A stretch of DNA of 33,100 bases from Alphaproteobacteria bacterium (GTDB lineage Bacteria > Pseudomonadota > Alphaproteobacteria > Paracaedibacterales > CAIULA01): NCBI GenBank assembly GCA_947475175.1, contig CANJLN010000011.1:1-33100 (forward strand). Direction: 5' to 3'. How positions within the stretch are numbered: the stretch's first letter is position 1; each line of letters begins with the position of its first letter. The notes beneath the pieces are model-generated. The model worked only from the letters and a program-made list of their open reading frames with translations. It was not told the DNA's origin and did not search any database. Positions 1,771 through 31,933 of this stretch are shown here, piece after piece. Position numbers and translations under genes: made by a program.

Positions 1771-2116
1771 GAGGGGCGGCAAGTATGTGAGGTCAGTCAA
1801 ACCAAGCACAGACGCGGTCGCAAGTGCAGCTCATTAGAGAGTGTTTTTGTGGTTCTCGTAAAGGTTCCGTTGAATACAGACAAGACGAAAATTTTTTGAG
1901 TTTTTTCAACTGCGCCCTAGAAATCGGGCTTCATGGATCCAAAACCACAAAACAACTTCTGACTAAAAGGGAAACAATTCCCGAAAAGTCCTGACTATTT
2001 CGGAATATGTTCTATTATGGTCGTATTTTGTCACAGACATTATTCAACCTTTGCTTGACCACACCTCATATAGAGAGATACATTTAATTAGGTCATTAAA
2101 GTAGGAGTTGCTTTGC
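1771..2116. other. Intergenic region upstream of nuoC
   Basis: No gene is seen. Two short hairpins share bases: GGGAA-ACAA-TTCCC at 1969-1982 and CCGAAA/TTTCGG at 1981-2003, so only one can form at a time. They lie upstream of the promoter proposed at 2055 and would only matter in a longer transcript. A GCCC/GGGC hairpin near 1914-1929 has no T tract and is not a terminator. Confidence 0.4.
2055..2084 (+). promoter_or_regulatory. Candidate sigma-70 promoter of the nuo block
   Basis: TTGACC (2055-2060) matches the -35 consensus at five of six positions. An 18-base spacer leads to TACATT (2079-2084), a four-of-six -10. Transcription would start about 25 bases before the nuoC ATG, leaving a short leader that carries the AGGAG site at 2103-2107. 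Confidence 0.45.
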
Positions 2117-2761
2117 ATGAGCACCCCGCCGTTATCATCTCTTTTTAAATTATTGCATGAACTTTTTGGCCCAGACTTAATTGATCTGTCTTATCATTTT
2201 GACACGCCTGTTGCGACTGTTTATGCCGGCTCAGTTGTACGCGCCTTAACTCTTTTAAGAGATCACAAGAAATGCCAATTCAGACAATTGGTTGACATAA
2301 CTGCTGTTGATTATCCAGAACACGCTCAAAGATTTGAAATTATCTACAACGTATTAAGCCACAAGAACAACACACGATTGAGAGTAAAAATACGCACTGA
2401 TTGTGGCACTCCCATCAATAGCGTGACCGGTGTCTTTGCCTCTGCCAACTGGTACGAGAGAGAAATTTGGGACCTGTTCGGGGTTTTATTTGCCGATCAT
2501 CCTGATCTGCGCCGTATCCTAACGGATTATAATTTTTCTGGTCATCCTCTTCGAAAAGATTTTCCTTTGTCTGGGTTCACCCAAGTGGCCTATGATGAAG
2601 AACAGAAAAGAGTCGTTTATGAACCAGTCAAATTAGACCAGAATTACCGTTCCTTTGATTTTCAAAGTCCCTGGGAAGGCATTTTGGGGGAAGGTCTTTT
2701 GCAAAAGCCGCACCTTGTGAACAACCCTGATAAAAAACCGACAACAGTGACTCATGGTTGA
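2117..2761 (+). CDS. nuoC: NADH-quinone oxidoreductase subunit C (30 kDa)
   Basis: This subunit of the peripheral arm of complex I sits next to NuoD and helps hold the quinone-reduction module together. The family signature is clear in the middle: '[13 protein letters not shown]' followed by '[13 protein letters not shown]' and '[12 protein letters not shown]'. About 214 residues, in the normal range for a stand-alone alphaproteobacterial NuoC not fused to NuoD. The ATG at 2117 is chosen over an in-frame TTG at 2108 because AGGAG (2103-2107) lies nine bases upstream of it. It is the first nuo gene here; nuoA and nuoB, which normally precede it, are absent from the window. Its 3' side is separated from nuoD by a palindromic element instead of the usual tight spacing. 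Confidence 0.96.
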
Positions 2762-2767
2762 AATTTA

Positions 2768-3032
2768 GAACCTGTATTCACATAATTTATTCCGATCGAA
2801 AGAGCAAAAATCAAATGAATGCTAGGAACAAGGCGAAGAGCATAGCTATTCTACGGTCGAGACTTGTGACGACGCAGTCTTTGATTTTTGCCTTTCCATT
2901 TGGGTTGCGCTAAGATGACGTTCTACATCGTCAAAACCCTTGCCAATAGAATAGCTATTGCCTGCGGGCTTTTCCTTGTATTAACGTCATCTTAGCTGCA
3001 ACGATCGAAATGAATTATATGAATACAGGTTC
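2768..3032. repeat. Composite palindromic element (family E) containing the nuoD start
   Basis: The outer arms, 2768-2798 and 3002-3032, are inverted repeats matching at 28 of 31 positions. Inside are two hairpins. Hairpin 1 pairs 2799-2815 with 2880-2895 (16 pairs, one bulged A). Hairpin 2 pairs 2909-2922 perfectly with 2983-2996 (14 pairs) and extends outward past one bulged T to 2905/3001. The linker 2896-2904 joins them, so as RNA the whole would be a three-way junction. The right outer arm holds the nuoD ATG (3010) and its first seven or so codons. This could be a MITE-like repeat with terminal inverted repeats, or an inverted duplication of the nuoD 5' end. No other copy is in the window. 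Confidence 0.85.
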
Positions 3033-4188
3033 TTATACCCTTAATTTTGGTCCTCAGCACCCAGCTGCTCACGGTGTTTTAAGGCTTGTTATGGAGCTTG
3101 ACGGAGAAGTTGTCGTCCGCGCTGATCCTCATATTGGTTTTTTGCATCGAGGTACAGAAAAACTGATTGAACATAAAACCTATCTGCAAGCGCTCCCTTA
3201 TTTTGATCGACTTGACTATGTTTCACCCATCAGCCAAGAGCATGCTTATATATTAGCGATTGAAAAACTCTTGGGGGTAACGCCACCCATCCGCGCTCAA
3301 TACATTCGTGTTTTGTTTTCTGAACTCACACGCATTCTGAATCACCTTTTGAATATTGCCACTTTCGCCATGGATGTAGGAGCAATGACTCCTTTTCTTT
3401 GGGCTTTTGAAGAGCGTGAAATAATCATGGAATTTTACGAGCGTGTTAGCGGCGCACGATTACATGCCACCTATATCAGACCAGGTGGTGTTCACAAAGA
3501 TTTACCAGAGGGTTTGTTGGATGATATCAAAGTCTTCGCAGAGCGCTTTCCCAAAGTTTTAGACGATATTGAAAATGTGCTAACAGAAAACCGCATTTTC
3601 AAACAACGAACTGTTGATATTGGCATTGTAAGTCCTGAACAAGCCATTGAATGGGGCTTCTCAGGGCCTATGCTTAGAGCGAGCAACGTAGTTTGGGATC
3701 TTAGAAAATCTCAACCTTATGAAATTTATGAACATCTCGAATTTGATATACCCGTTGGAAAAAATGGCGACTGTTATGACCGTTATTTAGTTCGAATTGA
3801 GGAGATGCGTCAAAGTCTTCGGATGATTCATCAGTGTATTGATCAAATGCCAAAAGGACCCGTCTTGGCTGATAATCGTAAAATTGTACCACCAACACGT
3901 ACAGCTATGAAACAGTCTATGGAAGCCCTCATCCATCACTTCAAACTTTACACCGAAGGATTTCATGTTCCAGCTGGCGAGGTATATACAGCTATTGAAG
4001 CCCCCAAAGGGGAGTTTGGTGTTTTCTTAATCTCTGACGGAAGTAATAAACCTTATCGTTGCAAAATTCGCTCTCCCGGCTTTGCTTATCTGCAGGCCCT
4101 TGATGTTATATCAAAAGGGCATCTGTTATCAGATGTAGTTGCCATTATCGGTTCTATGGATGTTGTCTTTGGGGAGATTGATCGTTGA
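3010..4188 (+). CDS. nuoD: NADH-quinone oxidoreductase subunit D (49 kDa)
   Basis: This is the core subunit of complex I that forms most of the quinone-binding pocket with NuoB, at the junction of the peripheral arm and membrane arm. Near the N-terminus is '[14 protein letters not shown]', containing the conserved pocket histidine, then '[16 protein letters not shown]' and '[17 protein letters not shown]' with the conserved tyrosine region. The end 'DVVFGEIDR' is typical. Full length at 392 residues. The start is unusual: both possible ATGs (3010 and 3019) lie inside the right arm of the palindrome at 2768-3032 and no Shine-Dalgarno is visible. No later Met precedes the conserved '[10 protein letters not shown]', so the start must be in the element. 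The stop overlaps the nuoE start. Confidence 0.97.
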
Positions 4189-4727
4189 GTTTTGTTTTTA
4201 CAGATGAAAATCTCGAAAAAATTAAGGCACATGTTGCAAAGTATCCAAAAAACAGGCAGGCAAGCGCTGTATTGCCTTTATTAGATTTGGCTCAAAGACA
4301 ATGTGGTGGATGGCTTCCGCAACCAGCAGTTGAAGAGGTTTCTAAACTGCTTGATATGCCTTTTATGCGCGTTATGGAAGTAGCTAGTTTTTACACCCTG
4401 TTCAACTTAAAACCCGTAGGGGCTTTTCATGTACAGATCTGTGGCACAACGCCTTGCTGGCTAAAAGGTTCTGAAGAACTGAAAAATGCGTGTGAGCATC
4501 ATGCAGCCAAAGATCCATTATTTACCATTAGCGAAGTTGAATGTTTGGGGGCATGCGTGAACGCCCCTGTGGTTCAGATTAATGATGATTATTATGAGAA
4601 TTTGACTTCTGAAGAGTTGATTCAGATTTTAAAAGATATGAAAAAGACACTGGATGGCCACGCCCCTACGGGGCTCGCCATGACGACACATCTAAAAAAG
4701 GAGAAAGCTGATGCTGACTCCGAATAA
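4185..4727 (+). CDS. nuoE: NADH-quinone oxidoreductase subunit E (24 kDa, [2Fe-2S])
   Basis: This subunit is part of the NADH-oxidising tip of complex I and carries cluster N1a. The four ligands are visible as Cys86 and Cys91 (CGTTPC) and Cys120 and Cys124 (CLGAC, followed by [10 protein letters not shown]). The loop between the two pairs looks some residues shorter than in mitochondrial homologues. It starts with TTG at 4185, overlapping the nuoD stop in a TTGA junction. GGGGAG at 4171-4176 lies eight bases before it and the N-terminus '[21 protein letters not shown]' fits the family, so the TTG is well supported. The last 25 or so residues are odd: codons for [14 protein letters not shown] are supplied by a palindromic repeat (4650-4685). 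The 3' end overlaps nuoF by 17 bases. Confidence 0.95.
4650..4685. repeat. Family D palindromic repeat inside nuoE
   Basis: The segment has the same outer sequence, CTGGATGGCCACGC at the left and CTCGCCATGACG at the right, as the two repeat copies near 21240-21273 and 21360-21395. Only the central hairpin differs: here GCCCC-TAC-GGGGC (4662-4674) replaces the GCAAC/GTTGC of those copies. It sits in frame in the nuoE 3' end, just before the nuoF ribosome-binding site. Confidence 0.85.
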
Positions 4728-21211: not shown

Positions 21212-21439
21212 CTGTCGTCCTCGGGCTTGTTCCATGCCGTCATGACGAGCAACGAAGTTGCGTGGCCATCCAGAAAAAGTGATACAGATGAAACACAAAA
21301 TAATGCTTATTGAGCGCACAAATCCTGAATAGAAAGATTTGTATGAAGACATTATTTGACTGGATGGCCACGCAACTTCGTTGCTCGCCATGACGGCGGC
21401 ACTTGTGAGATACCTATAGAACAAGTCCAAGGACGACAG
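21212..21439. repeat. Large inverted repeat built from family A and D units
   Basis: The left arm (21212-21273) is a partial family A unit followed by a family D unit; the right arm (21360-21439) is the same pair inverted. The D parts match over about 36 bases with one difference. The right arm has about 20 extra bases between its D and A parts. The loop between arms is 86 bases. The A parts are diverged and lack their second half. Confidence 0.85.
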
Positions 21440-31276: not shown

Positions 31277-31933
31277 ATGATTTTTTTGCCCTTGCTTGAA
31301 GAGAAAATTGGCTATTGCTTTAAAAGCAAACAACTCATTCAAAGCGCTCTGACTCATTCCAGCGTTCGTCATAAAGGCAGGCTATTCGAGCGATTGGAAT
31401 TCTTAGGGGATCGTGTCTTGGGGCTTGTGATTGCTGATCTTTTGTACAAACGTTTTCCAAAAGAAAACGAAGGTGATTTGGCCAAACGCTCAGCGGCGCT
31501 TGTTCGAAGAGAGGCTTGTGATAAGGTAGCAAAATCTTTATCTTTGCAAGACTATTTGGTTTTGGTTTCAACGGAAAAAGTTTCTAACAATGCCATTCTA
31601 GCCAATGCCATGGAAGCCTTGATAGGGGCCATGTATTTAGATGGAGGGCTTATGCCATGTCATCAGCTTATTCAGAAATACTGGGAAGACCTATTAACCG
31701 AAGATGTGCAACCTCCCAAAGATGCAAAATCCAGTCTGCAAGAATGGGCGCAAAGCAGAGGCAAACCCATCCCTGTTTATAAAATTATCGACTGCACAGG
31801 GCCAGGGCATGCCCCCTTTTTTCGCGTTTCAGTTTTAATTGAATCGTTACCAGAAGTCATTGGTGAGGGAGCGTCGAAACGCCATGCAGAACAAAATGCC
31901 GCTAAGATATTATTAGAAAGCTTTCAAAAATGA
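31277..31933 (+). CDS. rnc: Ribonuclease III
   Basis: Cuts double-stranded RNA in rRNA processing and mRNA decay. The signature 'ERLEFLGDRVLGL' gives Glu38, Glu41 and Asp45. The second catalytic stretch reads 'ILANAMEALIGAMYLDGG', with Glu113 present but Asn110 where Escherichia coli has the metal-binding Asp114. A double-stranded RNA binding domain fills about 148-218 ('SSLQEWAQSRG' to 'EQNAAKILLES'). 218 residues is normal. Standard position between lepB and era; its stop overlaps the era start (ATGA). Confidence 0.95.
   Translation: MIFLPLLEEKIGYCFKSKQLIQSALTHSSVRHKGRLFERLEFLGDRVLGLVIADLLYKRFPKENEGDLAKRSAALVRREACDKVAKSLSLQDYLVLVSTEKVSNNAILANAMEALIGAMYLDGGLMPCHQLIQKYWEDLLTEDVQPPKDAKSSLQEWAQSRGKPIPVYKIIDCTGPGHAPFFRVSVLIESLPEVIGEGASKRHAEQNAAKILLESFQK

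Follow-up and report, generated by a model that had tools for sequence, protein, structure and literature searches.

A putative IS5-type MITE at the broken nuoC-nuoD overlap of an alphaproteobacterium and the start codons it offers to nuoD

Introduction

In the window, by which the whole analysed stretch of 33,100 nucleotides is meant, the palindrome lying between the complex I genes nuoC and nuoD is very probably a 265-bp non-autonomous IS5-type element (MITE), which, judged from its sequence, entered nuoD at a TTA within codons 4-5. This high confidence covers the identity of the element and its insertion in nuoD, and excludes the manner in which nuoD is translated. We infer that nuoD is now made from an ATG supplied by the element, its level being probably both lowered and altered. 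The source genome is a draft of 1,567,949 bases in 66 contigs, and the insertion is known from this one assembly.

In this natural and recent example, mobile DNA would have taken over the start of a core complex I gene while its reading frame stayed open. The states before and after insertion can be compared cleanly, which makes the fate of translation after a hairpin breaks an operon overlap testable with reporters. The class of element is known. What appears to be new, within the searches made, is the family with its three-way junction, as well as the donation of a start where an operon overlap has been broken.

Structure and Identity of the Element

The original prediction described a palindrome with 31-base outer arms at this site, and the palindrome is real: positions 2768-2798 and 3002-3032 of the forward strand are complementary at 28 of 31 positions. 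The RNA of 2740-3060 folds to -116.4 kcal/mol, whereas shuffled sequences average -69.05 (z -9.45, with none of 100 shuffles as good), and the predicted structure consists of the anticipated long closing stem and two inner hairpins, whose arms occupy approximately 2799-2894 and 2905-3001 of the forward strand. The DNA of 2768-3032 likewise folds with a z of -11.07, a value that none of 200 shuffles reached. What had been missed is that 2768 and 3032 are the exact termini of an element, to which no strand is assigned; it begins with GAACCTGTATTCA and finishes with the reverse complement, TGAATACAGGTTC, and is flanked on the forward strand by TTA at 2765-2767 and again at 3033-3035. The left outer arm comprises the terminal inverted repeat and a subterminal stem.

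Several features are those expected of a MITE. The element is short, with identical ends of 13 bp inside its outer arms, and no open reading frame of at least 80 aa is listed within it, in keeping with a sequence that does not code for a transposase. The target site is duplicated in the window, and the other copies agree, as detailed below. Copies are dispersed in two related genomes, G001 (of the same genus) and G007, and comparison of the window genome with G001 reveals empty sites in both directions. Finally, the ends are shared, to within one base each, with an apparently autonomous IS5-family element (L223) that could presumably move the MITE and which comes from a different source and not from the window genome.

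The state before the insertion can be reconstructed by taking out the element along with one copy of TTA. This yields ATG GTT GAA ATT TAT ACC CTT AAT, encoding MVEIYTLNFG, and an element-free nuoD that is open, in frame, 388 aa long, and overlaps nuoC by 8 nt; in G001, nuoD starts MTETYTLNFG with an identical 8-nt overlap. The nuoC gene itself is intact (2108-2761, forward strand; NCBIfam NuoC, PF00329). The ancestral nuoD start, placed as in G001, is reduced to a four-codon remnant, ATG GTT GAA ATT TAG (2754-2768, forward strand), whose last letter is the element's first. The insertion would thus have duplicated the TTA, severed the old start after four codons, and removed the overlap. That a repeat was wrongly joined into nuoD during assembly is conceivable for a member of a repeat family in a draft of many contigs, but the exact element ends, the 3-bp duplication, and the in-frame empty site, together with the lack of a second full-length copy in the window genome for mis-joining, make the probability of such an artefact next to negligible.

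Copies, Age, and Shared Fold

The window genome additionally contains two partial copies (C49, 90 bp, 87%; C14, 46 bp, 91%), and no second full-length copy was found in it. The search for the arms that had been proposed returned full-length copies in relatives, two in G001 and five in G007. Including the one in the window, all eight measure 265-269 bp, and six, again including the window, carry identical 3-bp duplications; the two exceptions are flanked by TTA/TAA and TAA/TTA. One of the G001 copies is 95.5% identical to the window element over 265 bp, the other being diverged, whereas nuoD of the window genome and of G001 are 82.8% identical over 1152 nt, with a dS of 1.15. The insertion therefore appears recent, in that it would be far younger than the split of the two genomes, or the element has moved between lineages.

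The 95.5% identical copy in G001 (L101:1244-1508) has entered the 3'-terminal part of a small gene, whose C-terminus and stop (EPVFT) it newly supplies; the gene is uninterrupted in the window genome. The six other copies lie between genes or near gene ends when ORFs of at least 80 aa are considered, and the small ORFs overlapping three of these six are taken as chance. A decayed right half of the element was also observed at L002:455-680, just 5' of a superoxide dismutase-like gene (named by eye), fused to a palindromic repeat of another kind, about 130 bp long, that has further copies in the window genome.

All eight full-length copies fit one three-way-junction structure, in which a 28-pair stem closes two branched arms. 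In this structure of 99 pairs, derived from the same eight sequences on which it was tested, five of them from one genome, 93.8% of cells are paired and both sides have changed in 47 of the 99 pairs. On each of five measures all 500 shuffles scored lower, and far lower values resulted when the structure was slid by 1 to 3 columns. Palindromes can stay paired through templated repair without selection, and the 47 doubly changed pairs raise the question of selection on the fold versus its upkeep by palindrome-repairing mutation. Judged from these copies, the element brings its strong fold with it, and the fold did not evolve for nuoD.

Distribution and Mobilising Enzyme

When 84,980 species genomes were scanned for the two ends spaced as here, 14 stretches were returned, six of which are the G001 and G007 copies; seven are titled Oscillospiraceae, Defluviitaleaceae, Acutalibacter, or Clostridia (Defluviitaleaceae and Acutalibacter belong to Clostridia), and one is titled uncultured bacterium. 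Six genomes reached through the scan contain 8 to 92 exact ends each (48 and 44 in G038), and a reversed-pattern control gave zero in all six. At the loci derived from the scan, identical 3-bp duplications flank 26 of 32 end-to-end elements, a set that counts six G001 and G007 copies again and includes one element nested within another. These ends are abundant in some Clostridia, and their recurrence there points to an insertion-sequence lineage that crosses phyla. No match to the element was found in plasmids, phages, or viral contigs.

The clue to the mobilising enzyme is provided by a 580-bp element of Acutalibacter, which has one changed base in one end and carries pieces of a decayed IS5-family transposase. 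One of these pieces led to L223, an 824-bp IS5-family element with ends GAACCCGTATTCA and TGAATACTGGTTC, flanked by TAA/TAA and differing from the window element by one mismatch per end. Its two overlapping frames correspond to the first and second halves of NF033580, each singly below the 110-bit cut-off, and match PF13340 and PF01609 as well; the two are presumably joined by a frameshift. Its host sequence is a contig from a viral collection, where the element occupies the end of a 314-aa frame (L223:167-1900), serine recombinase-like by eye. Assignment to IS5 is based on the NF033580 match and the TTA/TAA duplications, and within the family the element may belong to an IS427/IS1031-like group. 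Both groups are mentioned in PMC2516522 and PMC3196728.

An autonomous partner within this lineage was considered and rejected. None of 22 DDE_Tnp_1 matches in the window genome (G000), G001, G004, G005, and G007 is flanked by the end pair, with as many as 3 mismatches allowed at each end, and the L223 transposase has no match at E 0.001 in the window genome, G001, G005, or G007. It matches in 8 of 38 genomes, where the ends differ. Among six transposase matches in five genomes derived from the scan, one (L220) is bounded by the element ends; another (L222) has a weak end pair with 3 mismatches each and was not counted. As no transposase with these ends was found in the window genome or the four relatives searched, the mobilising enzyme can be proposed only from other bacteria.

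Searching the available literature for the end sequence turned up no description of the element. The sole match was incidental, in the primer list of PMC9000118, where a reverse primer for Kingella kingae pilC1 includes the end sequence. On this basis the element family looks undescribed.

Consequences for the Start of nuoD

The nuoC-nuoD junction was compared among relatives, as the original prediction had suggested. In all, 38 genomes have a nuoD match, and the fetched DNA was read at 30 nuoD loci, comprising the window, L032 (with no nuoC match), and 28 relatives with both genes. The two genes overlap in 23 of these 28 and are separated by gaps of 5, 10, 12, 23, and about 160 nt in the other five, and the element is absent from the junctions read. 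Among relatives an intact overlap is the norm. Relatives without the element that kept the same nuoD N-terminus with unchanged expression had been named as evidence against a role of the palindrome; the relatives do lack the element, but the residues preceding TLNFGPQHP are variable among those read and are not kept. The spacer of about 160 nt (L016:1346-1507), in an unrelated relative, is of another origin; the element ends are absent from it at up to 3 mismatches, and its fold is not unusual (z -0.20).

In the window, nuoC stops at TGA 2759-2761, and the first in-frame nuoD start is the ATG at 3010, 248 nt downstream, so that simple coupling between the two genes is gone, as had been noted. 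The last stop in the nuoD frame is TAG 2947, and no ATG, GTG, or TTG follows between 2947 and 3010. The only in-frame ATGs, at 3010 and 3019, both come from the right outer arm (3002-3032, forward strand), in agreement with the earlier view that the palindrome supplies the start. As currently readable, nuoD extends over 3010-4188 of the forward strand and encodes 392 aa, its N-terminus now reading MNYMNTGS where MVEI is presumed to have stood. Neither ATG has a Shine-Dalgarno sequence, the duplex with the anti-Shine-Dalgarno being +0.1 kcal/mol at each. In the predicted fold, computed in a 250+60-nt context, the region from -15 to +15 around 3010 is unpaired at a fraction of 0.11, the lowest of the 26 predicted starts in the window, compared with 0.18 for 3019 and 0.30 for the next gene; the start should indeed be buried, as originally proposed.

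Other genes started by an end of the element were also sought. Among 78 distinct outward ends of the element, 10, including that in the window, are followed by at least 50 open codons, and no clear second case of a gene started by an element end emerged from the other nine, five of which were scanned against Pfam. The single match among those five was Asp23, beginning at residue 22 of a frame that starts with CTG.

Possible Routes of nuoD Translation

The route favoured here, tentatively and as one possibility among several, is that the outer stem of the nuoC-nuoD mRNA would be cleaved, with RNase III as the natural enzyme, freeing a near-leaderless nuoD message. In the folding model the start region is 0.11 unpaired in the full transcript and becomes 0.62 unpaired with a 5' end at 3005 and 0.95 with one at 3010. 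With 5' ends between 2790 and 3000 it stays at only 0.22-0.34, so that cutting the outer stem would most simply yield a message that can be used. The presence in the window of rnc, the candidate processing enzyme (31295-31921, forward strand; TIGR02191, 220.2 bits against a cut-off of 166.25), is consistent with possible RNase III cleavage. The same model weighs against a hybrid promoter created at the left junction (TTGAAA at 2758-2763 and CATAAT at 2781-2786), from which a transcript starting near 2793 would lack most of the left arm. Despite 10 of 12 consensus matches and a 17-bp spacer, this promoter is quite improbable, as the one site found equals the 1.0 expected by shuffling and a 5' end at 2793 gives an unpaired fraction of only 0.27 at 3010 and 0.35 at 3019. 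It is also rather doubtful that ribosomes ending nuoC at 2761, or the remnant at TAG 2766-2768, halt at the foot of the stem, melt it, and begin again at ATG 3019. The remnant stop sits exactly at the base of the outer stem, and blocking pairing up to 2783 leaves ATG 3019 0.93 unpaired, but the effect is sensitive to the footprint assumed (0.34 if blocked to 2776, 0.44 if blocked to 2786) and no Shine-Dalgarno would assist. If reinitiation did occur, ATG 3019 would be used from the facing strand of the stem, and the fold itself would keep nuoC and nuoD coupled.

The original prediction also considered a switch gated by structure, and a regulatory RNA evolved at nuoD to respond to temperature, a protein, or a small RNA might seem attractive given how deeply the start is buried and how the fold is kept by paired changes across copies. 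This first reading was rejected and is extremely unlikely, since the kept fold travels with the element and recurs at unrelated loci in related genomes, the insertion is recent, the relatives' junctions that were read lack the element, and no Rfam family, whether riboswitch or other curated cis-regulatory RNA, matches anywhere in the window at gathering score. Very improbable, too, is the idea that selection has kept the element family as a folded three-way junction that makes insertions inside operons survivable, the fold bringing the nuoC stop beside an outward ATG in the element end so that ribosomes would cross the 265-nt insert; such a reading would extend to IS5-type MITE ends common to intracellular Alphaproteobacteria and Clostridia. 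It is unlikely, although less so, that nuoD is no longer usefully translated and that a damaging insertion, young or strain-specific, has been captured. A start that is the least accessible of 26 and has no Shine-Dalgarno, in an insertion that is young, would fit such a loss; against it, the remaining nuoD is an open frame reaching the NuoD and PRK06075 cut-offs, and the element offers in-frame starts, neither of which proves use.

Comparison with Known Elements

The element is closest to the IS5 family, perhaps to IS427/IS1031-like groups within it. It shares with L223 the ends to within one base each, a duplication of the TTA/TAA kind (TAA at L223), and the size class, the transposase halves of L223 matching the family models given above. 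It differs in measuring 265 bp without a transposase gene and in having an interior not visibly derived from an insertion sequence. The Correia/NEMIS MITEs of Neisseria are likewise small and palindromic with terminal inverted repeats, and the cutting of their transcripts by RNase III, which acts at the TIRs of Correia transcripts (PMC10969869; also PMC2229807), would by analogy be a precedent for the favoured cleavage; they have other ends and measure 107 or 155 bp (PMC2229807), and in the window, moreover, a start codon has been replaced by the insert. Rickettsia palindromic elements similarly occur inside conserved protein genes of an alphaproteobacterial intracellular lineage, but are 105-146 bp long and read through in frame (PMC2229807), whereas the larger window element has TAG 2947 in the nuoD frame and gives a start instead. 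The CIR elements of Caulobacter and Brucella also have two structured arms; these are joined by a linker without the usual 5'-3' closing stem, according to PMC2229807, while the arms described here stand on a closing terminal stem.

Other Repeats in the Window

A second repeat, ACTGGATGGCCACGCC...CGCCATGACG, is located at 4649-4685, in frame in the C-terminus of nuoE, with related copies at 21359 and 22474; nuoE of G001 terminates without it. An inverted repeat of the same family occupies 21236-21397, with 43-nt arms that are 93% complementary and lie 76 nt apart. Between 11508 and 25333, several interspersed intergenic copies of AGATCCTCGGAACAAGTCCGAGGATGACA and its inverse constitute another family of palindromic repeats.
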